DNA of 64,000 nucleotides from Hyalangium versicolor (GTDB taxonomy: Bacteria > Myxococcota > Myxococcia > Myxococcales > Myxococcaceae). The position numbers were made by a program, and so were the translations under genes. The stretch covers positions 62,001-126,000 of the forward strand of contig NZ_JAHXBF010000020.1 in NCBI RefSeq assembly GCF_020103695.1. Direction: 5' to 3'. Below the pieces are notes generated by a model that did not search any database, was not told the origin of the DNA, and saw nothing but the letters and a program-made list of their open reading frames with translations. Of this stretch, positions 20,259-58,722 are shown piece by piece (the first letter of the stretch is position 1; the number at the start of each line of letters is the position of its first letter).

Positions 20259-21998
20259 TCAGCGGATCTCCCAGCGGGAGGAATCCTCCGAGCCTCGGGA
20301 GTAGACGCCCCCGTTGGGCAGGGCGGTGTAGAAGAGGACGTCTAGCGCGCCTGTTACGGAGACTCCGTCGAACAGCCCCAACTCGCCGTCCTGTGGAATC
20401 GTAAAGCCGAGCTCCTTGGGAGCGAGGCGGACCGTGCCGTGAGGCGGCACCACATGCTCGGTCAGCACGGTGCTGGTGCTGGGATCGCGCAGAGAGGAAA
20501 TCGTCCGCCGCAGGTCCACCGTGAGGACGAGCCCGGCCGTGGAGAGCGCCTGGTCAGTCGGGTTGCGCAGCTCCACCCAGCCCTCGCGAGGGCTGACGGC
20601 GTTGAGCTGCAGGGTGGTCGGAGCGGTCCGGAATCGACCCAGTTCCCCGCGCACGAAGGAGGTCCGGCCGCGAGCGTAGGCCTTGAGGAAGGGGACTCCC
20701 TCGTGGAACTTGGCCATTCCGTCCGGGTCCGACGGCATGGACTCATCGGGGCCGAGCAGCAGGTACGGGTCGGCGTCCATGTGCGGAGCAATCAGCGCGT
20801 ACATCGCATCCACCCGAGCGTCGAAGACCTCGGGAGCGAGCAGGTCTTCCAGGCCCTTCTCGACGAGAGCGAACAGGCGCTCGCGCAGCTCGGGGTTGTA
20901 GATGATGCGGGTGTTGAGGTTGGAGAAGGCGGGGAGGAAGCCAGGGCGGGTGGCCCGCTTGGCGTACATCTTCGCCACCCAGCCGTCCGAGAGGCTGTAG
21001 CCAAACAGCGGGTGATCAACGACGGGCTTCATCCCCAGTCCATAGGTGGGCCACCAGCGCGCATCATTGTTGTTGAGATCCCAGGGCACGTAGGTCCACT
21101 TACCGGTGGTCGCGTCGTGGACGAGGTAGCTCTGCGAGTCCTCATGGATGTCATTGGAGATGAGCACGTCGGCCACCATGGCTCGCAGGTAGTGCTCCAG
21201 CTCCAGGTTGGCGTCGAGCATGGCAGGCAGGTTCGGCTCGGGGGCGCGGTTGATGACGTACATCAGCGTCATGACGTCGTCCTTGCTCTTCACGCTCTCG
21301 TTGGTCTCCTTCTGCCAGTCCTGCTGGTAGTCGGTGCGCCACAGCTTCATTTCGCAGTCCTTGGCACCGCAGCGGTAGATGGTGGGATCCGGATCAGCGA
21401 AGCCATGGGCCTCGGCGAAGTCCTTGTCCACGCGCTCGATGTCGAGGAAGACGCCCTGATACTGGCCGTTGATGGAGATGCGCACGAAGCGGGTGCGCGG
21501 GGCCGGTAGCCCCATGGCGAGCATCATGTCGAAGGCGAGCTTCTCGGTCATCATCGTCCGGTCCTGGAACTCGGCGATGAGGTTGTGCTTGCGCCGGCCG
21601 TCGAACTCGACGCCCTTGGGGAACTCGATGCGCCAGCTCTTCTTCGGGAAGAAGCGCGAGCTGGAGCCGCGCAGCCGCACCATCACTGGCTGGGCCTGGC
21701 CCTCGAAGACGAAGGTGGCCGGCTGCTCCTCCGCGTAGGGATCCTGGTCGAACAGCGCCAGCGTCTGCTCGGGGATCTGCAACTCGTAGAGCGGCACTTC
21801 CGTCTGCAGCGCCGGATACTCGAAGCGATCTCCCGACTGCTCCTGCTGCTGCGCTTTCTCCTGGCCGCAGCCATTGAGCAGCATCAACAGCATCGTTCCC
21901 ACCACCGCGATCCAGAGAATGGACCGCCCGTTCTCGTCCTGCCCGCCACCCACCATCGCCGCCACTGCTCTCATCACCGCACCCTCCGTCTCTTTCAC
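20259..21998 (-). CDS. CotH-family kinase-like lipoprotein with C-terminal beta domain
   Basis: 579 residues from ATG 21998; an internal ATG at 21974 is also possible. A long basic N-region, hydrophobic segment and lipobox LLNGC predict a lipoprotein. The body follows the CotH secreted-kinase pattern: VMVRLRGSSSRFFPKKSWRIEF, KHNLIAEFQDRTMMTEKLAFD, and the metal-binding/catalytic GKWTYVPWDLNNND at about 300-311. The C-terminal about 110 residues (LNAVSPREGWVELRNPT; GTVRLAPKELGF) look like a lamin-tail-like beta-sandwich. In Bacillus CotH phosphorylates spore-coat proteins; a surface protein kinase role here is inferred. Divergent from ECF module 2. Confidence 0.82.
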   Translation of the reverse strand: MKETEGAVMRAVAAMVGGGQDENGRSILWIAVVGTMLLMLLNGCGQEKAQQQEQSGDRFEYPALQTEVPLYELQIPEQTLALFDQDPYAEEQPATFVFEGQAQPVMVRLRGSSSRFFPKKSWRIEFPKGVEFDGRRKHNLIAEFQDRTMMTEKLAFDMMLAMGLPAPRTRFVRISINGQYQGVFLDIERVDKDFAEAHGFADPDPTIYRCGAKDCEMKLWRTDYQQDWQKETNESVKSKDDVMTLMYVINRAPEPNLPAMLDANLELEHYLRAMVADVLISNDIHEDSQSYLVHDATTGKWTYVPWDLNNNDARWWPTYGLGMKPVVDHPLFGYSLSDGWVAKMYAKRATRPGFLPAFSNLNTRIIYNPELRERLFALVEKGLEDLLAPEVFDARVDAMYALIAPHMDADPYLLLGPDESMPSDPDGMAKFHEGVPFLKAYARGRTSFVRGELGRFRTAPTTLQLNAVSPREGWVELRNPTDQALSTAGLVLTVDLRRTISSLRDPSTSTVLTEHVVPPHGTVRLAPKELGFTIPQDGELGLFDGVSVTGALDVLFYTALPNGGVYSRGSEDSSRWEIR

Positions 21999-22192: not shown

Positions 22193-22789
22193 GTGCAGGT
22201 GAACATCGAGGACGCGCTCTGCTCGGGACTCGGCGAGGACGCCGCGGATCGTTGGCTCCTGGACTTTCATGCCGGGCGGCGCTCCGTCCTGGAGCAGTGC
22301 TACCGCGAGCTCTATCCCACCGTGCAGCGGGCAGTGGGGCGCGTGCTCACCGGGGCGGACCAGGAGACCGTCATCCACGAGGTCTTCTATCGATTGATCT
22401 CCCGCGAGGAGCTGCGCCGCAGTTTCCGGGGCGGATCGTTGAAGGCCTGGATCGCCACGGTGGCCTATCACCAGGCGCTCGAGTACGTGCGCCGCCTGCA
22501 GCGCGAGCGGGGAGCGCTGGAGCAGGCGAGGGATCTCGGAGTCGTCGAGGCGGATGCGGTGGAGGCCTCTGATTCCGAGTGCGAGGCCCGCATCCTTATA
22601 GAGCGATTCCGGCGCGAGTGCCTGCCGGAGAAATGGCACGCCGTTTTCGAGGCTCGCTTCCTGAAGCAATTGCCGCAGCGGGAGGCGGCTCGGGAGCTGG
22701 GCATGCACCGAACCACGCTGGCGTACCAGGAGTTGCGCATCCGCGCGCTGCTGCGCCGGTTCCTGTTGCGCGAAGGGAGTACACCATGA
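22193..22789 (+). CDS. ECF-type RNA polymerase sigma factor (module 2)
   Basis: 198 residues from GTG 22193 behind a GGAGGGG site. Region 2 is recognisable in LEQCYRELYPTVQRAVGRVL with VIHEVFYRLI and SLKAWIATVAYHQALEYVRR. Region 4 is in RFLKQLPQREAARELGMHRTTLAYQELRIRALL. Divergent from classical ECF groups. It is translationally coupled (4-bp overlap) to a zinc-finger membrane anti-sigma gene, then to a caspase-like protease and a propeller lipoprotein: four genes joined by ATGA/TTGA-type overlaps, so clearly one operon. Confidence 0.85.
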   Translation: MQVNIEDALCSGLGEDAADRWLLDFHAGRRSVLEQCYRELYPTVQRAVGRVLTGADQETVIHEVFYRLISREELRRSFRGGSLKAWIATVAYHQALEYVRRLQRERGALEQARDLGVVEADAVEASDSECEARILIERFRRECLPEKWHAVFEARFLKQLPQREAARELGMHRTTLAYQELRIRALLRRFLLREGSTP

Positions 22790-23556
22790 ACCCAAGGGTC
22801 TGCCCCATGCGCGGCCGTGTCGATGAGCACTTCGCGCGGAAGTTGAAGCCGGCGAGCGAGCACGCGCTGCGAGAGCACCTGCCGGCATGTACCTCCTGCA
22901 AGTCTCTGTATGAGCGGCACCTGCTGTTGCGGCGCTTGGACCCGAAGGCGAACGCGGATGCGCAGAGGCGGCTGGGGCAGGGGCTGGGATTGGTGAGGCC
23001 GCCGGTGCCGGTGACGCAGGGGGTGGCGGCGCTCGCGGTGGTGGCGTTGCTCGTGGTGGGAGTGGTGGCGACGAGGCCCACTCCGTTCTCGACGGAGGCG
23101 GAGGGTTTCACGGCGCGCGGGAATCCCGCGGCGGCCCAGCCGGACAACCTGCGCGTCTTCCGGGTGCGTCCGGGGCAGACGGCGGAGCCTGTCGAGGGTG
23201 AATTGCGAGCCGGGGACGAGCTGGCCTTCGCCTACGAGAACCCGCATGGGCGCAAGTGGCTGATGATCTATGCGGTGGATGAGCACCAGCACGTGTACTG
23301 GTTCCATCCGAGCTGGTCCGATCCGGATTCGAATCCCGCTGCGGTGCAGGCCTTCGGAGGCGTGGCGCTGCACGAGCTGCCCGAGGCCATCTCGCACGAC
23401 TTCGATGGAGAGCGGCTGGTGCTGCACGGAGTCCTGGCGGACGAGCGGCTCACGGTGAAGCAGGTCGAGGCGCTGATGCGAGGGCACACACCGGAACAGC
23501 CGCTGTCGCTCCGTGGAGCGGAGGAGACGTCGTTCACGGTGAAGGTGAAGCGATGA
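22786..23556 (+). CDS. Zinc-finger membrane anti-sigma factor with periplasmic sensor domain (module 2)
   Basis: 256 residues from ATG 22786. The N-terminal cytoplasmic domain contains a zf-HC2-type motif HLPACTSC (His31, Cys35, Cys38). A single transmembrane helix lies at about 78-96 (GVAALAVVALLVVGVVAT). The extracytoplasmic part (about 110-256) includes LRAGDELAFAYENPHGRKWL followed by MIYAVDEHQHVYWFHPSW, a beta-rich pattern resembling DUF4384-type domains. The expected job is to hold the coupled sigma factor at the membrane until the outer domain senses a signal. The release mechanism is unknown; the adjacent caspase-like protease is an attractive but unproven candidate. Confidence 0.85.
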   Translation: MNPRVCPMRGRVDEHFARKLKPASEHALREHLPACTSCKSLYERHLLLRRLDPKANADAQRRLGQGLGLVRPPVPVTQGVAALAVVALLVVGVVATRPTPFSTEAEGFTARGNPAAAQPDNLRVFRVRPGQTAEPVEGELRAGDELAFAYENPHGRKWLMIYAVDEHQHVYWFHPSWSDPDSNPAAVQAFGGVALHELPEAISHDFDGERLVLHGVLADERLTVKQVEALMRGHTPEQPLSLRGAEETSFTVKVKR

Positions 23557-25082
23557 GGGGAGCGGCCCGGGCGTTGGCGTTCGTCCTCGCCCTGGCGGCG
23601 CTGCCGGCCGTAGCGGAGGAACGGCCGCGAGCCGCCTTCGCGTTCATTGTCGGAGTCAACCACAGCGTGGATCCGAACGAGCCACCGCTCCGCTACGCGG
23701 ATGACGATGCGGCGCGCTACCTGGATCTCTTCCGGCTCCTGGGCGCACGGACGTACTTGCTGGCCCGGCTGGATGAGAACACGGAGCGGTTGCACCCGCA
23801 GGCCGCGGCGGAGGCAAGTGTTCCCCGTCAGGCCGAGTGGAACCGGTTGGTGGAGCAACTCGCGCACGACGTGGCGCAGGCGAAGGAGCGCCACCTGGGG
23901 ACGGTGCTCTATTTCGTCTATGCGGGCCACGGCAGCGTGCGCAACGGCCAGGGGTACGTGACGCTCGAGGATCGGAAGCTCACCGGGAAGGATCTGGCGG
24001 ATGAGCTGATCACCCGGGTGGATGCGGAGCAGGTGCACCTCATCGTGGACGCGTGCTCCTCGTACTTTCTGGCCTATGGGCGAGGGCCTGGAGGCCAGCG
24101 CCGGCCCCTGAGTGGCTTCAGCGAGGTGACCCGCCTGGCGGAGGACGGGCGAGTGGGGTTGCTGCTCTCCACGTCCAGCGTTCGCGAGAGCCATGAGTGG
24201 GAGGCCTTCCAGTCCGGCGTGTTCAGCCACGAGGTGCGCTCCGGTCTCTACGGGGCGGCGGACGCGGATGGAGACGGAAGGGTGAGCTACAAGGAGATCG
24301 CGGCGTTCGTGCAGCGGGCGAACGCGGCCATTCCCAACGAGCGCTTCCGGCCGGAGGTGCACGCCCGTCCGCCGAAGGATGGACAGTGGCTGGTGGAGCT
24401 GGGCAAGGCGCTCGAGCACCGGATCGAGGTGGACGGGAGCGAGTCCGTGCACCTGGAGCTGGAGGACAGCAGGGGCGTGAGGCTGGCGGACTTCCACAAC
24501 GCCTCGGGTCAGCGGCTCTGGGTGGCGAGGCCCGTGGGCACAGGCCCGCTGTTCGTGCGGCGTGTGATGGATGGGAGCGAATACCGCATCGACGCGATGC
24601 CCGAGGTGGTGAAGCTCGCCGCGCTCACGCCGCAGGCGCCTCGGACCGTGGCGCGAGGCGCGGAGCACGAGGCGTTCAGCCTGATCTTCTCGCTGCCGTA
24701 CGACCAGAAGACCGTCGAATCCTATGACTTCACGATGCCCGTTCCGCTCAAGCTCCTGGAGCCGGGGCGCCCGGCGTGGAGGAGCATCGCGGGCTGGAGC
24801 GTGCTCGGAGTAGCGGGGGCTACCCTGGGCGGAGGCGCGTGGACGACGCTGTCGGCGCGGGGACTGCGCTCGGAGAGCACGAGCGGCCTGTCCAATGCAG
24901 ATGCGCTGCACCGCAACGCTCGTATCCAGAGCCTCAATCGACGCTCTACAGCTCTGTACGCGGCCGGAGCGGCTGCGGGGGTGGTGGGGCTCGGGTTGCT
25001 GCTGTGGCCTGGGGCTTCAGCGGAGGCCTATCCGACGGTCTCGCCGAGTGCTGCGGGCCTGCACCTGGAGGGACGGTTTTGA
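23553..25082 (+). CDS. Secreted caspase-like (C14) protease with EF-hand loop (module 2)
   Basis: 509 residues. A signal peptide (to about 21) is followed by a caspase/metacaspase fold: RAAFAFIVGVNHS strand, catalytic His126 in YFVYAGHGS and catalytic Cys168 in HLIVDACSS. An EF-hand-like loop DADGDGRVSYKE at 237-248 follows, suggesting calcium dependence as in metacaspases. A beta-rich middle leads to two hydrophobic segments near the C-terminus (WSVLGVAGATLGGGAW; LYAAGAAAGVVGLGLLLW), so the protein is probably membrane-anchored with the protease outside the cytoplasm. Overlaps both neighbours by 4 bp. Same position in the operon as the caspase-like gene at 55716. Confidence 0.87.
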   Translation: MRGAARALAFVLALAALPAVAEERPRAAFAFIVGVNHSVDPNEPPLRYADDDAARYLDLFRLLGARTYLLARLDENTERLHPQAAAEASVPRQAEWNRLVEQLAHDVAQAKERHLGTVLYFVYAGHGSVRNGQGYVTLEDRKLTGKDLADELITRVDAEQVHLIVDACSSYFLAYGRGPGGQRRPLSGFSEVTRLAEDGRVGLLLSTSSVRESHEWEAFQSGVFSHEVRSGLYGAADADGDGRVSYKEIAAFVQRANAAIPNERFRPEVHARPPKDGQWLVELGKALEHRIEVDGSESVHLELEDSRGVRLADFHNASGQRLWVARPVGTGPLFVRRVMDGSEYRIDAMPEVVKLAALTPQAPRTVARGAEHEAFSLIFSLPYDQKTVESYDFTMPVPLKLLEPGRPAWRSIAGWSVLGVAGATLGGGAWTTLSARGLRSESTSGLSNADALHRNARIQSLNRRSTALYAAGAAAGVVGLGLLLWPGASAEAYPTVSPSAAGLHLEGRF

Positions 25083-27064
25083 AGGCGTGGCTGCCGGTGC
25101 TCGGGTTGCTGCTCGGGGCCTGCGTGGCGCCCGTGTCGCTGGACGAGCGTCCGTGTCCGTGCGGCGAAGGGTGGACCTGCTGCGCGGCGACGCAGATGTG
25201 CGTGCGGGAGGCGAACTCCTGCTCCATGCAGCAGCAGCCCTCGACGCCGCCGGATGGAGGGACGGACGGCGGGACGGATGGCGGTCACGACGCCGGGCCG
25301 GATGGCGGCTCCGACGGTGGAGTGGACGGAGGGACCGACGGCGGCCCGGACGAGGGGGACGGAGGGGATCCGGATCTCATCCTCCGTTGCTTCGACGAGC
25401 ACTGGTGTTGGGAGAACCCCTCGCCGCACGCGCGCTACTACGAGGCGGTGTGGGCGGGCGGGCCGGATGATGTCTGGGCGGTGGGCGCACCCGGCATCGC
25501 GACTCACTGGGATGGAAAGGGCTGGAAGGTGTACCGCTCGGCCACGCAGCAGACGCTACTGGCCATCTGGGGAACGAGCTCGGATGAGGTGTGGGCCGTG
25601 GGCCGCCAGGGCGCGGTGGTGAGGTGGAACGGGAAGGCCTGGCAGCCTGTGGGCACGGGGCTCAAACAGCACCTGGTCGCGGTGTGGGGCAGCGGCCCGA
25701 ACGACATCTGGGTCGGAGGCTTCGATGGCGCACTGCTGCACTGGAACGGAGCGGAGTGGACTCGGCCCGAGAGCACGCCGCCGCACTACTTCACGGGGCT
25801 TTGGGGCACGGGGCCGAACGACGCGTGGGTCATCACCGCGGAGGGAGCGCTGCTGCACTGGGACGGGCAGGCCTGGACACAGCAGCCGAGGTTCCAGAGT
25901 GAGCTCGTCCTGAGCCTGAGCGGCGCGGACGGAGTGCTATGGGCGCTGGACCAGACACTCACCACGGGGACGTGGCGTGTGCGTCGCTACGAGGGCGGAG
26001 CGTGGACCGTGGTCTACGAGGGGACGGAGCCGCTGAACAGCCTCGTGGCACTGAGCGCGAGGGATGCCTGGGCGGTGGGAGCACACGGCTCGGTCCTGCA
26101 CCTCGACGCTGAGGGAGCCTGGTGGAGCTCCATGGGCATCTCCGAGGATCTCGAGCACGTCTGGGGCACTGCGAGCATGGGGCTCTGGGCAGTAGGGAGC
26201 CGGGGCCAGGCGATGCGGTGGACGGGCGACGAGTGGGTCTCGCTGCGAGAAGGCGCTGACACGGCGATGCTGGGAGGCCGGGCGCTGAGCGCGACGGAGG
26301 CCTGGGCCACGGGCGATCGCGGCACGCTGCTGCGCTGGAGCGAGGGCCGGTGGTTGACCCTGACGACCGGCACGCAGGCCGCGTTGAACTCGGTCTGGGG
26401 CGCAAGCTCCAACGAGGTCTGGGCCGTGGGAGCGGGTGGGACCCTCGTGCGCTCCGATGGCATGACGGCCGCGCTGTGGCCGGAGTCCGTGGCCATGGAG
26501 ACGTTGCGAAGCGTATGGGGCTCCAGTGCTTCGGATGTGTGGGCGGTAGGCGATGCGGGCCGCCTCCTCCACTACGACGGACAGAGCTGGGATGTTCGTT
26601 CGAGCCCCACCACCGCCACGCTGTACCGGCTCTGGGGCACGGGCGTGGAGAACGTGTGGGCGGTAGGCGAAGCCGGGACACTCCTGCGCCGGAGCAGCGC
26701 GGGGTGGAAGGCCGTGACGCTGGATCCGCCCACCTCGCAGACCTTCTATGGCCTGTGGGGTTCGAGCGCGAATGACCTCTGGGCCGTGGGCGCGAAGGGC
26801 GTGGTGCGCCACTACGACGGCCAGCGCTGGTCACCCGTGCTCCCGTTCGCGGAGGGAGATCTCCTCGACATCTGGGGCACGGGGCCTGCGGACATCTACG
26901 CGCTCGAGCGGAGGGCCGATGGAATGACCCTCTTCCACTACGACGGAACCACATGGCTACCGTCACCCATCCCCTACGGAGGGGACTTCAACTCCCTCTG
27001 GGGGATGGGGACGGTGCCGCGGATAGGAGGCTTCGGCGGTTCGATCCTTCGCTACAAGCCCTGA
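25079..27064 (+). CDS. 14-repeat beta-propeller surface lipoprotein (module 2)
   Basis: 661 residues from TTG 25079, supported by GGAGGG 6 bp upstream and by the immediate lipoprotein signal (KAWLPVLGLLLGAC, Cys15). A Cys-rich knot (CPCGEGWTCCAATQMC) precedes a low-complexity PDGGTDGG-type spacer (about residues 58-100). About 14 repeats of 39-42 residues follow, of the form WGSSANDLWAVGAKGVVRHY plus D-G-x-x-W, a pattern that folds as beta-propeller blades (two seven-bladed propellers would fit). Last gene of the operon. Probably displayed on the surface by the long Asp/Gly spacer; ligand unknown. Confidence 0.85.
   Translation: MKAWLPVLGLLLGACVAPVSLDERPCPCGEGWTCCAATQMCVREANSCSMQQQPSTPPDGGTDGGTDGGHDAGPDGGSDGGVDGGTDGGPDEGDGGDPDLILRCFDEHWCWENPSPHARYYEAVWAGGPDDVWAVGAPGIATHWDGKGWKVYRSATQQTLLAIWGTSSDEVWAVGRQGAVVRWNGKAWQPVGTGLKQHLVAVWGSGPNDIWVGGFDGALLHWNGAEWTRPESTPPHYFTGLWGTGPNDAWVITAEGALLHWDGQAWTQQPRFQSELVLSLSGADGVLWALDQTLTTGTWRVRRYEGGAWTVVYEGTEPLNSLVALSARDAWAVGAHGSVLHLDAEGAWWSSMGISEDLEHVWGTASMGLWAVGSRGQAMRWTGDEWVSLREGADTAMLGGRALSATEAWATGDRGTLLRWSEGRWLTLTTGTQAALNSVWGASSNEVWAVGAGGTLVRSDGMTAALWPESVAMETLRSVWGSSASDVWAVGDAGRLLHYDGQSWDVRSSPTTATLYRLWGTGVENVWAVGEAGTLLRRSSAGWKAVTLDPPTSQTFYGLWGSSANDLWAVGAKGVVRHYDGQRWSPVLPFAEGDLLDIWGTGPADIYALERRADGMTLFHYDGTTWLPSPIPYGGDFNSLWGMGTVPRIGGFGGSILRYKP
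25250..25378 (+). repeat. GGACGG-type low-complexity repeat encoding Asp/Gly spacer
   Basis: Irregular GAY-GGN-GGN triplet repeats encode a DGG(T/S/V/P) spacer between the Cys knot and the propeller of the lipoprotein. Such tracts are common linkers in myxobacterial lipoproteins. Confidence 0.8.
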
Positions 27065-54654: not shown

Positions 54655-55716
54655 TCATTTCCCCGGCTGGCAGAAGTTGCCGTCGCCGAGGGCCTTGCAC
54701 ACGAACTTGTCCGGGCATTCCTCATTCGTGGTGCACGCGAAGGTGCAGCTCTGCTCGCGGCAGATCCCGTTGATGATTCCCAGGGCCACGCAGGCGTTAT
54801 CGCTCGTGCAGGTGGCTCCCACGGACTCATAGGCGCCGCAGCCGGCGAAGTGCGTCGGGTTGGGCGTGCACCGGCTCTCCTGGCAGACAAAGCCACTTCC
54901 GCATTGCTTGTCCTTGTTGCACTTCTCCAGGCACGCGCTCCCTCCGCCGGGGAGCGCCTGGCAGATCGCGTTCCCGTGGCACTTCGTGCCTCCGTCGCAC
55001 GGAACGCAGACGGCGGTCGCTTCGCACTGGGAACCCAGGCAGACAAACCCCGCGCCGCAGTGGACGTCTTCGAGGCACTCGACGCAGTGGCCGGTCTGCG
55101 CGCACTGGTAGTCGTCCGAGCACCCCGTCATGGCGCACCCGCTATGCGGAGGAGGCAGATGAACCTCCACCTCCTTCTGCTCACCGGCGCTCACGCAGGT
55201 GTCCGAGTCCACCGCCGGGAAACCGGGCGCGGAGATGTTCAGCGAGAAGCAGCCGTCTGGCAGCGGGCCGACCTTCAGCCAGCCGTCCTCACTCACAGGC
55301 AGCTCCTGCACGGGCGTGCCCTTCACGGTGACCTGGGCCTCGCTCACATCCTGGTGCTCGGGAGACTTCAGCCACACTGACAGGTAGCTGGCCTCCTTCG
55401 GAACGAGCGCCCCGAGCGTGACGGACTGTCCACCCTGGACGATCAAGGGCTCGCGCAGGGCTCGGGTCGCCGAGGCGACGATGAACAGCTCGGCCTGCCC
55501 CGCGGGCACCTTCTCCAGCGTGAAGGAGCCGTCCACCGCCAGGCGGCTGTTCAACTCGGGCTCGCCCATCACCGACACATAACCCACGGAGGGATCACAG
55601 TCGGAGATCTGGCCATGCACCGTGCCGAAGAGAAAAGGCGCGTTGGCCAGCTCACCACAGCTGCTCGTGCCCACGGCGAGGAGGAAAACAATCGCGATGT
55701 GAAGTCTCTGGCGCAT
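54655..55716 (-). CDS. Cys-rich surface lipoprotein (module 3)
   Basis: 353 residues from ATG 55716. Lipobox GTSSC (Cys20). The N-terminal half has carboxypeptidase-regulatory/SdrG-like beta domains (VDGSFTLEKVPAGQAELFIV; DGWLKVGPLPDGCFSLNIS). The C-terminal half is a series of disulfide modules (CVECLEDVHCGAGFVCLGSQ; CNKDKQCGSGFVCQESRC; CTTNEECPDKFVC) like those at 5238 and in the propeller lipoprotein at 25079. Last gene of an operon (1-bp overlap, TGATG) with caspase-like, anti-sigma and sigma genes. Probably surface-exposed; function unknown. Confidence 0.83.
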   Translation of the reverse strand: MRQRLHIAIVFLLAVGTSSCGELANAPFLFGTVHGQISDCDPSVGYVSVMGEPELNSRLAVDGSFTLEKVPAGQAELFIVASATRALREPLIVQGGQSVTLGALVPKEASYLSVWLKSPEHQDVSEAQVTVKGTPVQELPVSEDGWLKVGPLPDGCFSLNISAPGFPAVDSDTCVSAGEQKEVEVHLPPPHSGCAMTGCSDDYQCAQTGHCVECLEDVHCGAGFVCLGSQCEATAVCVPCDGGTKCHGNAICQALPGGGSACLEKCNKDKQCGSGFVCQESRCTPNPTHFAGCGAYESVGATCTSDNACVALGIINGICREQSCTFACTTNEECPDKFVCKALGDGNFCQPGK

Positions 55717-57356
55717 CAGAAGCGATACCCCACTCCGGCGAGGCCGCCGGCGAACCCCACTGCCTGCCCCTTCCCATCCACCACCACGTACGTGAGCATC
55801 CACTGCATCTGCGAGATCAGCTCCAGCCTCTCGCTCAGGCGCCACACGGCGCCACCCATGAGCCCGGGGCTGAAGGTGAAATACTCTTGTCCTCCCACGA
55901 AGGTATCCACGGCAAAGGACCGCCGCAGATAGAGAGCGGCCACGCGCGGACCTGCGAAGAGCGACAGTCGATCCCATCGCCACAGGTACGGCATGCCCAC
56001 ACCTAGGGAAAGCCGAGTGTAGGCGAAGGGAACCTGCGAGCCGGGCACGAGCTCGAGCTGATGCCGCCCATGGCTTCCCCCCAAGTCCAGCATGAGGGCG
56101 AAGTCCTGCAGTGGCCGATCCTCCAGGCGCAACGCCACGCCCACATCGGGAGAGGCGGGCAGCAACTCGGTGCGGCTGCGGCGGTCCACGAACGAGAACA
56201 TCCCGCCCACCAGCGAGAGGGAACGATGGGGGAAGGCATCCGCCAGCAGTTGCTCCAACGGCAGCCGCTGGCCCTCGGCCACCTCCACCTCACGGCGCAC
56301 CAGCACCGCATCGCCCTTGGTCAGCTCCACGATGCGGTTCCCTGGCATCACCGCGGTGCCTCCGGGCAGATCCGTGCGCGGCTCGCCATCTACCTTGAGT
56401 GTGAAGCCGTCCAGCCGCGGGTTGTACGAGAACAGCTCCGGGCGCCCCAGCCTGTCGATGCTGCCCGAGAGCACCACCGGATCAGCGCCCACCTCGAGGA
56501 TCTCCGCGGACGGACGTTGGCGCCCCTGGGTGAAGGCGAAGGTGCGGCGGCGCGCGTAGTCGTGCGCCTCGGTGGCGGTGACGGCGCCGTCCGCGTTGCG
56601 ATCCGCCGAGCCGTTGAGGCCCTCGATGAGGAAGTATGTGTAGATGTCGTTGCGCAGCCCCTCGTCCTCGCGGGCGGTCTCGCCCCAGTCACAGGCGGCG
56701 AAGACCATGGAGGCGCGGCTCGACTCCTCCAACGGGCGCGCGTAGAAGCCGGACTTGATGCCGGCCAGCTCCTGCTCCAACTCCTTGGGCAGCAACGACT
56801 TGCCGTTGCCGCTGTGACAGGTGGCCAGCACCAGCAGCCGGCGTCGGCTGGGCAGCTTGTCGAACTCCGCCTTCAGCACGTCCATGGGCAGCGCGGTCTG
56901 CGCGATGGAGTGGTACGAGGCGTCGTGGGTGACGAGGTAGCGCTTCAGCTCCCCCTGCCCATCCCGAGACAGCGTGCCGTGCGCGGAGAAGTACACCACC
57001 ACGACGTCATCCGGCCGGGTGGCCTCCTGCTGCAGCTCCCGGAGAGCCGCGAGGATGGACGCGCGCGTCGTCTGCTCGGGGGTCGTGAGCAGCCGCACCT
57101 GATCGAAGTGCCCGCGCGCGGGGTCCTGCAGCGCGGCGGCCAGATCCTGCGCGTCCTTCTCCGAGTAGCGCAGGTTGCGCCACTGCGGATCCTGGAACTC
57201 GGCGATGCCTACCAGCAGGGCAATGCGCCGCGGGGCGTAGGCGGTCGATAATGTAGCCTCGTCGAGCTTGAGCGGCACCAGGCCGCCCTTCTCGTAGGCA
57301 GCCGGGCCGGTACAAGCCACAAGGGCTCCCAGCATCATGAGGACGAGGCGCTTCAC
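55716..57356 (-). CDS. Caspase-like (C14) lipoprotein with C-terminal beta-barrel (module 3)
   Basis: 546 residues. Lipobox LVAC (Cys15). Caspase fold: RRIALLVGIAEFQ strand, catalytic His126 in VVYFSAHGTLS and catalytic Cys180 in LLVLATCHSGNGKS. An EF-hand-like loop DRNADGAVTATE lies at 252-263. A middle beta region (about 280-380) is followed by a C-terminal stretch of alternating strands (LSLFAGPRVAALYLRRSFAV; LISQMQWMLTYVVVDGKGQA) ending in GVGYRF, typical of an outer membrane barrel. The protease domain would thus face the periplasm or surface. Occupies the same operon position as the caspase-like gene at 23553. Confidence 0.85.
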   Translation of the reverse strand: MKRLVLMMLGALVACTGPAAYEKGGLVPLKLDEATLSTAYAPRRIALLVGIAEFQDPQWRNLRYSEKDAQDLAAALQDPARGHFDQVRLLTTPEQTTRASILAALRELQQEATRPDDVVVVYFSAHGTLSRDGQGELKRYLVTHDASYHSIAQTALPMDVLKAEFDKLPSRRRLLVLATCHSGNGKSLLPKELEQELAGIKSGFYARPLEESSRASMVFAACDWGETAREDEGLRNDIYTYFLIEGLNGSADRNADGAVTATEAHDYARRRTFAFTQGRQRPSAEILEVGADPVVLSGSIDRLGRPELFSYNPRLDGFTLKVDGEPRTDLPGGTAVMPGNRIVELTKGDAVLVRREVEVAEGQRLPLEQLLADAFPHRSLSLVGGMFSFVDRRSRTELLPASPDVGVALRLEDRPLQDFALMLDLGGSHGRHQLELVPGSQVPFAYTRLSLGVGMPYLWRWDRLSLFAGPRVAALYLRRSFAVDTFVGGQEYFTFSPGLMGGAVWRLSERLELISQMQWMLTYVVVDGKGQAVGFAGGLAGVGYRF

Positions 57357-57359
57357 GGG

Positions 57360-58142
57360 TCAGCGCTGATTCTCGCTGTTCTTCACGAAGACGTCGAACC
57401 GGGCGGTGGACAAGGGGTTGTCCACGCGGGCTGTCCCTCCCTTCAGGGTGGCTTTGACTCCTTCCTCCGACAGCTCCTCACCTGCTGGTGAGGCGACCAG
57501 CCAGAGCGACACCGGGCCCTTTTCCCCGGTGAGGCTCACGCCGGTGAGCCCCTGGGGGCCCTCGAGATCGTGCGTCCCGGCCTCGAGCAGGAAGTTGCCC
57601 AGCAGCTCGGGCGCTGCGCTGCCCACCTGCTGGAAGAGCAAGGCGCTGCCGGCCTCGGTGGAGTGGTAGCGCAGCAGCAGCACGTCCTCCGGGCTTACCG
57701 CCTCCCCGGGATCCAACCGCCGCAGCCGGCCGTCCGCGCCCCGAGCCGCCGCCACCAGCTCCAGGGTGATCCGGCTGGAGCCCTTGACCCCGGTCCACTG
57801 CGGGTTTCCGGGCGGTGCCAGCATCCGGGGGACGAGCACCGCGCCCAGCACGCAAGCAGCCAGCGCGGTCGCCACCCCCACCCAGCGTCCCACGGGGTTG
57901 GAGGTGCGCAGGCGCTTCTTGAGGCGCATCCAGCCTACGTCATCTCGAACCACCTCCCGTGCTGGGGCGAGGCTGAGCAGGAACAGGTCCACCTGCCCAT
58001 CGAGCAGGTCCGTGTCGGGGTGCTGGGCGAGGAACTCCTCACAGGTGTCACATGGGGAGGCGAGGTGCTCGCGGAAGTGCGTCACCGCTTCGGGCTCCCG
58101 AGCGGCCAGTGCGCGCAGCGTGTGGGCATCCAGGTGCTTCAT
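57360..58142 (-). CDS. Zinc-finger membrane anti-sigma factor (module 3)
   Basis: 260 residues. A cytoplasmic zinc-finger-like motif HLASPCDTC (His26, Cys31, Cys34; one residue longer than HxxxCxxC) precedes the membrane helix at about 87-105 (VGVATALAACVLGAVLVP). The periplasmic domain (about 112-260) is beta-rich with EDVLLLRYHSTEAGSALLFQ and GVSLTGEKGPVSLWLVASPA; its general layout mirrors the anti-sigma protein at 22786. Gap of 4 bp to the sigma gene and 3 bp to the caspase-like gene. Confidence 0.82.
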   Translation of the reverse strand: MKHLDAHTLRALAAREPEAVTHFREHLASPCDTCEEFLAQHPDTDLLDGQVDLFLLSLAPAREVVRDDVGWMRLKKRLRTSNPVGRWVGVATALAACVLGAVLVPRMLAPPGNPQWTGVKGSSRITLELVAAARGADGRLRRLDPGEAVSPEDVLLLRYHSTEAGSALLFQQVGSAAPELLGNFLLEAGTHDLEGPQGLTGVSLTGEKGPVSLWLVASPAGEELSEEGVKATLKGGTARVDNPLSTARFDVFVKNSENQR

Positions 58143-58146
58143 GCCA

Positions 58147-58722
58147 TCACTCCCACCGTCCAGCGAGGACGCGCCGCAGCAGCTCCCGCTTGATCCGGGC
58201 TCGGAACCGCTCGAGCCGCATGGTCACCGCGCTCTTGCCCACGCCGAGCTGCTCGGCGATCTCGCGCGCGGACAGCGAGCCCTCCAGGTAGAAGAGCTGC
58301 ACGGTCTTCTTCTCGTCGCCCTCGGGCAGCTCGGTGATGAGCTGCCGTACCACTGCAATGTCACGCTCTACCTGGAGCGCCTCGGGCAGGGCGGGCACCG
58401 TTTCGGGCTGAGGATCCTGGGTCTCCTCCTCCATGCGGCGCACGTGCGTCTTGCGCTCCAGCCGGGTGCGCGCCCGGTTGCGGGCGATGGACAGGAGCCA
58501 CGCCTCGAAGGCGGAGGGTTCCTTGAGCCGGGGCAGCGCCTTGAACGCGCGGACGTATGTCTCCTGAATCACGTCTTCCACCTCGTCCGCGTCCAGCGTG
58601 GCGAACCCCGCTGTCAGCCGAGCCACCAAGGGTCTCGTACGCCGGTACAACTCACCAAAGGCGGACTCCTCCCCACGGGCGGCCCGCCGCACACACTGGA
58701 TCAGTTCCTCAGAGGAACCCAC
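58147..58722 (-). CDS. ECF-type RNA polymerase sigma factor (module 3)
   Basis: 191 residues from GTG 58722 behind GGAGGAC. Region 2: AFGELYRRTRPLVARLTAGF with VEDVIQETYVRAFKALPRL and FEAWLLSIARNRARTRLERK. Region 4: VQLFYLEGSLSAREIAEQLG with VGKSAVTMRLERFRARIK. First gene of the module 3 operon; divergent from serC across 131 bp. Held by the next-encoded anti-sigma factor; likely autoregulated, but no -35/-10 is asserted. Confidence 0.92.
   Translation of the reverse strand: MGSSEELIQCVRRAARGEESAFGELYRRTRPLVARLTAGFATLDADEVEDVIQETYVRAFKALPRLKEPSAFEAWLLSIARNRARTRLERKTHVRRMEEETQDPQPETVPALPEALQVERDIAVVRQLITELPEGDEKKTVQLFYLEGSLSAREIAEQLGVGKSAVTMRLERFRARIKRELLRRVLAGRWE

Follow-up and report, generated by a model that had tools for sequence, protein, structure and literature searches.

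Caspase-like proteases as candidate site-1 proteases of membrane anti-sigma factors in Myxococcota

Introduction

Genes for sigma-70 factors have been described in the operons of four of the five metacaspases of Myxococcus xanthus DK 1622, and also in Anaeromyxobacter, Haliangium, Sorangium, Ralstonia and Fibrobacter (PMC3501461, 2012). The same association between C14 proteases and sigma factors occurs twice in the stretch of DNA analysed here, a window of 64,000 nucleotides from Hyalangium versicolor (assembly GCF_020103695.1, contig NZ_JAHXBF010000020.1, positions 62,001 to 126,000 of the forward strand). In each of the two operons, a gene for an extracytoplasmic function (ECF) sigma factor is followed by genes for an anti-sigma factor, a caspase-like protease and a lipoprotein, and we propose that the protease is probably the periplasmic site-1 protease of the anti-sigma factor encoded in its own operon.

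The 2012 survey links myxobacterial caspase relatives with cell death and considers that they may take part in autolysis. The word anti-sigma is absent from its main text, which, as far as it goes, does not propose that the protease controls the sigma factor. Operons that combine sigma factors with metacaspases were thus already known, and what is new here is a comparative case for cutting of the anti-sigma factor by the caspase, with a named bond. There is no report of a periplasmic caspase cutting an anti-sigma factor that we could find in the open-licence literature; supplements, most subscription papers and the large ECF classification paper were not covered by this search, so relevant work may exist.

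In the RseA/DegS/RseP pathway, an anti-sigma factor of the inner membrane is cut by a periplasmic site-1 protease and then by site-2 and cytoplasmic proteases (PMC8103513). The anti-sigma factor of operon 1 is likewise modelled as a single-pass protein with a periplasmic domain. However, the protease of the operon belongs to C14 rather than to the DegS-type (HtrA-type, PDZ-containing) serine proteases, and it shares the operon with the anti-sigma factor to which it would be matched.

Craspase, in which the type III-E gRAMP protein of the clustered regularly interspaced short palindromic repeats (CRISPR) systems acts with TPR-CHAT, cuts Csx30 bound to RpoE, after Leu407 (PMC9729208). Common to Craspase and the present operons are a caspase-like protease and a substrate (here a proposed one) that binds an RpoE-type sigma factor with a neighbouring gene. 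Craspase differs in that it is cytoplasmic and its CHAT protease is guided by RNA, whereas the proteases described here carry an export signal, have a membrane anti-sigma factor as their proposed substrate and are predicted to cut after Arg or Lys. A PADLOC search with the eight operon proteins gave no Craspase-type match, just a weak Csa3 match and a generic caspase match, a result that does not extend to CRISPR genes elsewhere in the genome. Caspase-fold proteases are likewise found near the genes of ECF54 sigma factors, whose neighbours encode CHAT proteases, subtilases or carboxypeptidases (PMC8999054). Finally, the paracaspase MALT1 resembles the operon 1 protease in that a caspase core is followed by an Ig-like domain, but it is a human protein and involves no sigma factor.

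Coupling of sigma factor, anti-sigma factor and caspase genes

The four genes at 22193 to 27064 had been described in the original prediction as one unit with 4-bp overlaps, and all three junctions (ATGA, ATGA and TTGA) are indeed of this kind. The same gene order, said to recur with low similarity at 58722 to 54655 on the minus strand, is confirmed there; the caspase domains of the two operons are 22% identical, and the junctions of operon 2 differ in being a 4-nt gap, a 3-nt gap and a 1-nt overlap. All four proteins have matches together in four fetched stretches for operon 1 and in two for operon 2.

There are nine caspase-like genes in the 13.56-Mb assembly, as found by C14-profile and protein searches. 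According to our own gene calls, a sigma/anti-sigma pair adjoins seven of them, namely those of operon 1, operon 2 and loci L008, L009, L010, L020 (where the pair is divergent) and L021, and the remaining two (L007 and L011) are without such a pair. When the genome was searched with a profile of 41 anti-sigma factors of the family, the top seven matches (251 to 73 bits) were exactly the seven caspase neighbours. These seven are themselves rows of the 41-row query, so that the rank is partly built in and the gap to the remainder is the informative part. Nearly all of the 31 weaker matches are restricted to the cytoplasmic zinc finger and the membrane part.

Matches to the caspase profile are present in 155 of 179 genomes. 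Coupling was tested in 23 Myxococcota genomes chosen for spread from among these, using the 150 listed caspase matches out of 182. There are 143 anti-sigma matches in the 23 genomes, of which 126 extend to the periplasmic part, and for 114 of these 126 a listed caspase match is no more than 3.5 kb away, where about 1.3 would be expected by uniform placement. None of the 17 matches limited to the cytoplasmic part lies within this distance. Among the 114 linked pairs, the two genes share a strand in 107 and the anti-sigma gene is upstream in 105. Two of the 12 anti-sigma factors counted as unlinked (L097 and L100) in fact adjoin a caspase, and the one in genome G052 is about 3.9 kb from a listed caspase. 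The families are thus found together in many Myxococcota genomes, and the earlier suggestion that the architecture itself is under selection is strongly supported by these neighbourhood counts and by the co-variation described below.

The reverse view, starting from the protease, is similar. Scanning all genomes with a caspase pattern gave 70 loci, and a sigma factor gene is located within 4.5 kb in 60 of them and at 5.0 kb in one more; seven have only short upstream DNA and two have no clear caspase. Sigma-linked caspases served as the query, making this a biased sample of caspases. Furthermore, 36 listed caspases in the 23 genomes have no anti-sigma match, and 13 of the 19 that were inspected have a sigma factor gene within 4.5 kb. 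Nearly all of the 70 loci are labelled Myxococcota or Deltaproteobacteria, and the exceptions include a Saprospirales locus (L090) that has no sigma factor; the distribution outside Myxococcota is drawn from this pattern scan and not from a systematic search. One locus, L083 (BNCN01000017.1), is in a record labelled Comamonas sp. KCTC 72670 and carries an operon like those of Myxococcus, which possibly indicates a mislabelled or contaminated record. A related operon of Myxococcus xanthus is found at L081.

A conserved basic residue in the anti-sigma linker

An AlphaFold2 model of the operon 1 anti-sigma factor has zinc-finger-like helices, a single transmembrane helix (residues 77 to 94), a disordered linker (about 95 to 116) and a periplasmic beta-sandwich (122 to 255). 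The predicted local distance difference test score (pLDDT) is below 50 for residues 95 to 109 and 111 to 116, and the first strand begins at 122. The zf-HC2 match of this protein (12.7 bits) is below the cut-off of 22.2, and 21 of the 41 family members match at E<=0.1. Residues H31, C35 and C38 occupy the conserved HxxxCxxC columns, at which H, C and C have family frequencies of 0.74, 0.72 and 0.71, and most members have one hydrophobic segment near residues 80 to 110. The periplasmic domain had been called DUF4384-like, a description that we do not retain: PF14326 matches a single member of the 41 (E=0.012) and neither of the two operon proteins. A Foldseek search with the operon 1 periplasmic domain gave no match at E<=0.001.

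The linker contains the most conserved column of the entire periplasmic half, represented by Arg111 in operon 1 and Lys120 in operon 2. This column holds arginine (R) or lysine (K) in 84 of 85 anti-sigma factors, comprising all 78 labelled as linked to a caspase and six of the seven labelled as unlinked, with weighted frequencies of 0.50 for R and 0.49 for K. The residue that follows is G (0.84) or S (0.13) in most of the 85 members. An [RK][GS] motif within 32 residues of the membrane helix is present in 83 of the 85, compared with five of 18 other zinc-finger membrane anti-sigma factors. The latter are the usable members of 20 that were fetched, and they are without this periplasmic domain.

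At an earlier stage, 54 of the anti-sigma candidates were retained by length, hydrophobicity and coding score. In the alignment used for the linker column, L045_1813 was removed because it is not a member of the family and L105 was added by hand; from the second set, proteins outside 190 to 330 residues or with scores of 25 bits or less were left out. A protein is labelled as linked when a caspase is present in the same fetched locus, and the first 60 rows carry this label because the caspase brought them in. Two accounts of the motif were considered and rejected. Specificity for caspase-linked anti-sigma factors is not borne out, as most unlinked ones keep the motif and thus offer no discriminating control. 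A structural role is not favoured by the model of the operon 1 protein, the only one modelled, which places the motif outside the strands in a segment with pLDDT below 50.

The caspase-like proteases and their basic sites

In its AlphaFold2 model, the operon 1 protease has a core at about residues 26 to 258, preceded by a signal peptide and followed by a beta-sandwich (268 to 354) and a hydrophobic helix hairpin (408 to 484). The protease of operon 2 is a putative lipoprotein with a barrel-like C-terminus, and it carries A-x-C in place of D-x-C and Lys186-Ser187 in the activation loop. Signal peptides, barrel-like tails and several lipoboxes were judged by eye. Among 29 full-length family caspases, 25 match PF00656 at E<=0.01. 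The best Foldseek match of the operon 1 model is the caspase-Ig3 portion of MALT1 (E 1e-6), a protease with arginine specificity, and caspases are also among the best folds; TM-scores are low, 0.3-0.4 for the best matches and, among the MALT1 matches listed, 0.26-0.45 at 11-13% sequence identity.

The catalytic His and Cys are kept nearly throughout the family (Table 1). The Asp of the D-x-C context, D166 in operon 1, is present in 103 of the 107 rows with a letter at this position, and D52 is conserved in 106 of 108. These two residues align with the Asp residues of the LRGCxND and DSC motifs of metacaspases in the PDB, and they presumably line the S1 pocket as they do in metacaspases. A metacaspase-like specificity for basic P1 residues is predicted from these acidic residues, which are present in operon 1 and in the family.

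Two basic sites within the protease itself are also recurrent. In 94 of the 102 caspases whose catalytic Cys was located, an [RK][GS] motif stands precisely at position +9 from this residue, within an activation loop whose block pLDDT in the operon 1 model is 53-55. It is at this loop that the subunits of mammalian caspases are separated. In addition, an [RK]G motif is found 85 to 150 residues after the EF-hand-like loop, where the folded part has ended and the C-terminal anchor has yet to begin, in 68 of the 73 caspases (of 110 after removal of duplicates) that could be anchored and are long enough; the 73 include four A-x-C caspases that are without it.

Co-variation between the linker and the caspase loop

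The identity of the basic residue at the anti-sigma site matches that in the activation loop of the neighbouring caspase in 73 of 75 operons (49 R/R, 24 K/K and 2 K/R), and in 43 of 45 when one row is kept per 50%-identity cluster. Two other caspase columns that vary between R and K have no association with the anti-sigma site (p 0.36 and 0.39). In a validation for which the prediction was stated beforehand, 49 of 52 pairs agree (p=5e-10), as do 44 of the 47 that are less than 60% identical to the first set. A total of 60 pairs had been fetched for this purpose, and the eight that could not be used comprise one without an anti-sigma factor, six in which the Cys was missed by the regular expression (one of which also has a misaligned anti-sigma column) and L155, whose column is misaligned; by eye, L155 has K at both sites. 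The loop residue was taken by a fallback rule where position +9 is not R or K, which concerns four operon-2-type caspases in the discovery set and four in the validation set. Removing these rows leaves agreement in 69 of 71 and 45 of 48 pairs, respectively.

When the two sites were simulated to evolve independently, the observed correlation was reached once in 5000 runs on the tree of the first set, and the observed association once in 3000 runs on a combined tree of 127 tips, from which the loop columns had been left out. Within the genome of H. versicolor, operon 1, L020 and L021 are of the R/R type and operon 2, L008, L009 and L010 are of the K/K type, and therefore genome composition is not the cause of the agreement. 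The plain reading of this pattern is that a single active site would read both peptides.

The tether site of the caspase is more weakly associated with the anti-sigma site (p=0.0012 over 45 clusters), with tree simulations reaching the observed value in 18 of 2000 runs when scored by phi and in 49 of 2000 when scored by log odds. We rejected this association as further evidence. Operon 2, L103 and L104 had been scored R though they have no [RK]G in the region (the tether region of operon 2 reads R-S), and these rows count against it.

Proposed mechanism

We consider it likely, judging from these sequence comparisons, that each operon is a one-way switch. The sigma factor would be bound by an anti-sigma factor that crosses the membrane once and has its C-terminal beta-sandwich in the periplasm. 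A lipid, a helix hairpin or a barrel-like tail would serve as the anchor of the caspase, and a sensor-like lipoprotein is often encoded after it. Perhaps, in the presence of a periplasmic or outer-membrane signal, the caspase becomes active and processes its own activation loop (Arg177|Gly178 in operon 1), and it may also detach itself from the anchor (at Arg368|Gly369 in operon 1). It would then cut the anti-sigma factor at the basic residue of the juxtamembrane linker, which is Arg111|Gly112 in operon 1 and Lys120|Gly121 in operon 2. A general site-2 protease, together with cytoplasmic proteases, would degrade the stub left in the membrane and so release the sigma factor; 12 stretches of the genome match M50, the site-2 protease family.

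The original prediction already included the speculation that the caspase cuts the anti-sigma factor and frees the sigma factor. Intact dyads, a linker motif of the basic-P1 type and the R/K co-variation all speak for this part, and the cut is now predicted in the linker instead of the folded periplasmic domain. An EF-hand-like loop (D237-E248) is present in the protease, and calcium may, as that prediction has it, gate the enzyme. We regard the module as real, widespread and more than a gene order, and as a variant of the known logic of anti-sigma proteolysis. A broader proposal, for and against which we find the case evenly balanced, is that it constitutes a phylum-wide class, with several insulated sigma/anti-sigma/caspase modules per cell, in which each caspase would cut its own anti-sigma factor and itself at co-evolved Arg/Lys sites while interchangeable lipoprotein heads would feed in different signals.

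To our knowledge, little is settled about what most bacterial relatives of caspases do. The proposed mechanism would give those of myxobacteria a concrete function as proteases in signalling, for which both the substrate and the bond to be cut are specified. If it is true, a caspase-type site-1 protease is added to anti-sigma control, and the logic of Craspase, in which a caspase relative cuts the partner of a sigma factor, operates also in the periplasm and without CRISPR. Paralogous protease-substrate pairs would then be available within one cell for studying how such pairs are insulated.

Alternative explanations

Several observations weigh against a regulatory role for the protease. Six of the 19 inspected caspases mentioned above have no sigma factor gene nearby. 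Conversely, loci L093 and L095 (genomes G107 and G110) encode a sigma factor, an anti-sigma factor and an exported protein of about 200 residues with no caspase domain, which by eye resembles the barrel-like portion at the C-terminus of the caspase at L010. The linker motif could have another role, because it is kept by six of the seven anti-sigma factors that have no adjoining caspase, although their genomes carry other caspases; moreover, the 18 control anti-sigma factors are not matched for the periplasmic domain. Autoprocessing is suggested by the position of the loop motif alone, and at least four caspases without a sigma neighbour keep this motif, which is thus not specific to those with anti-sigma partners. 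Caspases of the operon 2 type have lost both the Asp of D-x-C, the second of the S1-aligned acidic residues, and the [RK]G of the tether, and yet their anti-sigma factors keep K-G. Finally, the co-variation rests on few independent events, since only 7 and 5 R/K changes are inferred by parsimony, and 5 of the 127 pairs disagree.

Some of these points fit an explanation in which the caspase is an output. The sigma factor would drive its own operon, the periplasmic protease and the lipoprotein would be effectors that act, for instance, in lysis, predation or envelope repair, and the linker motif would serve some other function. ECF operons often include target genes, L093 and L095 retain the sigma factor, the anti-sigma factor and the barrel-like part without the protease domain, and the motif persists in unlinked anti-sigma factors. 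However, neither the R/K agreement between linker and caspase loop nor the close link of this particular periplasmic domain to caspases is predicted by such an arrangement, and we consider it unlikely.

It is less probable still that the linker is a pseudosubstrate, which would occupy the caspase active site uncut in an inhibitory complex until a signal separates the two proteins. A bound, uncut peptide would give the same R/K co-variation, and the disorder of the operon 1 linker is compatible with it. However, Gly or Ser after a basic residue within a flexible linker is the usual form of a scissile site and not of an inhibitor loop, and there is no obvious route from uncut binding to release of the sigma factor. 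We find it hardest to credit a third, common trypsin-like protease that activates the caspase at its loop and also cuts the anti-sigma factor, for while a general protease with basic P1 preference fits both sites and one locus (L092) has two exported proteins with metalloprotease motifs in place of the caspase, it would not produce R and K types that coexist in one genome and match operon by operon.

Lipoproteins

The lipoprotein of operon 1 consists of a lipobox, a Cys-rich RPCPC..GWTCC module, a low-complexity linker and approximately 14 repeats of 39 residues, as counted by eye on a split made with a regular expression. Searches of Pfam (at E<=1) and of the PDB sequences (at E<=0.1) gave no match to it. 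Among the 98 loci with room for a further gene, 40 have a lipoprotein gene after that of the caspase, against a background of 82 in 944 called genes. Among the other loci there is a different gene in 35 cases, several of them lipoprotein-like by eye, and no same-strand gene within 160 bp in 23; seven further loci end too soon to be counted. The lipobox expression used in this count both misses and over-calls lipoproteins, and related loci are counted separately.

In the operon 1 orthologs L212, L213, L215 and L214, the lipoprotein is kept at full length with 79, 71, 54 and 45% identity, and the corresponding values for the caspase are 89, 83, 75 and 66%. Operons L023 and L025, which are more distant, share with operon 1 some 50 residues past the lipobox, and their heads differ; L024 has the module in common with L025 and no match to the operon 1 lipoprotein. 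A common N-terminal module combined with differing heads fits interchangeable sensor heads, and thereby lends indirect support to the earlier suggestion that the "propeller" of the lipoprotein senses a ligand.

There are two further arrangements of note. At L111 (G166:C21), a caspase and a lipoprotein with the operon 1 Cys-rich module are present with neither a sigma factor nor an anti-sigma factor found nearby; about 110 aligned residues, low-complexity sequence included, are shared with operon 1, and the head is RCC1-like by eye. At L009 (G000:C14, 3806-8748), the sigma, anti-sigma and caspase genes stand between the genes of two lipoproteins whose N-termini are similar.

Features of the two operons and variant loci

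Table 1. Positions in the window of the genes and predicted sites of operons 1 and 2.
Feature	Position	Strand	Remarks
ECF sigma factor, operon 1	22193..22789	+	198 aa; GTG start; Sigma70_r2 25.9 bits (cut-off 24)
Membrane anti-sigma factor, operon 1	22786..23556	+	256 aa; ATG start; AlphaFold2 model, family alignments
Predicted cleavage site Arg111-Gly112, operon 1 anti-sigma linker	23116..23121	+	family alignment
Exported caspase-like (C14) protease, operon 1	23553..25082	+	509 aa; ATG start; PF00656 22.6 bits (cut-off 21.4)
Catalytic His126, operon 1 caspase	23928..23930	+	His in 107 of 108 rows with a letter (110 rows)
Catalytic Cys168 in D-x-C context, operon 1 caspase	24054..24056	+	Cys in all 107 rows that have a letter here (110 rows)
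Predicted activation-loop processing site Arg177-Gly178, operon 1 caspase	24081..24086	+	nine residues after Cys168
EF-hand-like calcium loop D237-E248, operon 1 caspase, DADGDGRVSYKE	24261..24296	+	Asp at the first and Glu at the last position, each in 105 of 110 rows
Possible tether-release site Arg368-Gly369, operon 1 caspase	24654..24659	+	before C-terminal anchor
Lipoprotein, operon 1	25079..27064	+	661 aa; TTG start
ECF sigma factor, operon 2	58147..58722	-	191 aa; Sigma70_r2 55.5 bits
Anti-sigma factor, operon 2	57360..58142	-	260 aa; family profile match 84 bits, itself a row of that profile
Linker site Lys120-Gly121, operon 2 anti-sigma factor	57785-57780	-	family alignment
Caspase-like protease, operon 2	55716..57356	-	546 aa; PF00656 61.8 bits (cut-off 21.4)
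Lipoprotein, operon 2	54655..55716	-	353 aa; carboxypeptidase-regulatory-like domain, Cys-rich repeats

Both sigma factors pass the cut-off of TIGR02937 for the sigma-70 superfamily (50.5 bits for operon 1 and 85.4 for operon 2, against 42.9), and in both the Pfam model of region 2 is over its cut-off and that of region 4 is matched below it. A Pfam search with the operon 2 anti-sigma factor gave no match. The lipoprotein of operon 2 matches PF13620 (30.2 bits, cut-off 32.3) and TIGR04201 (22 bits, cut-off 25), each below the cut-off.

The gene order varies among related loci. In L020 and in several of L028-L049 (from Corallococcus, Pyxidicoccus, Archangium and others), the sigma/anti-sigma pair is divergent from the caspase gene. 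In many of these an exported protein of about 250 residues follows, which in L020 ends in a helix hairpin like that at the C-terminus of the operon 1 caspase. The rearranged locus L112 (G001:C9, 2-3958) has, on one strand, a caspase, a lipoprotein-like gene, a sigma factor and an anti-sigma factor. At L092 (G144:C47, 4391-8164), a sigma factor and an anti-sigma factor of the family are followed by genes for two exported proteins with metalloprotease motifs of the HExGHxxGxxH type, with a third gene between them and no caspase. This single case could mean that the operon has a slot for a protease.

The upstream DNA of most operon 1 relatives has a TGAACA-like block in common, and no clear promoter box pair was found. 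A gene for a CotH-kinase protein is located at 20259-21998 of the window, divergent from operon 1, and similar genes, recognized by their start sequences, occupy this place in L212, L213 and L215.

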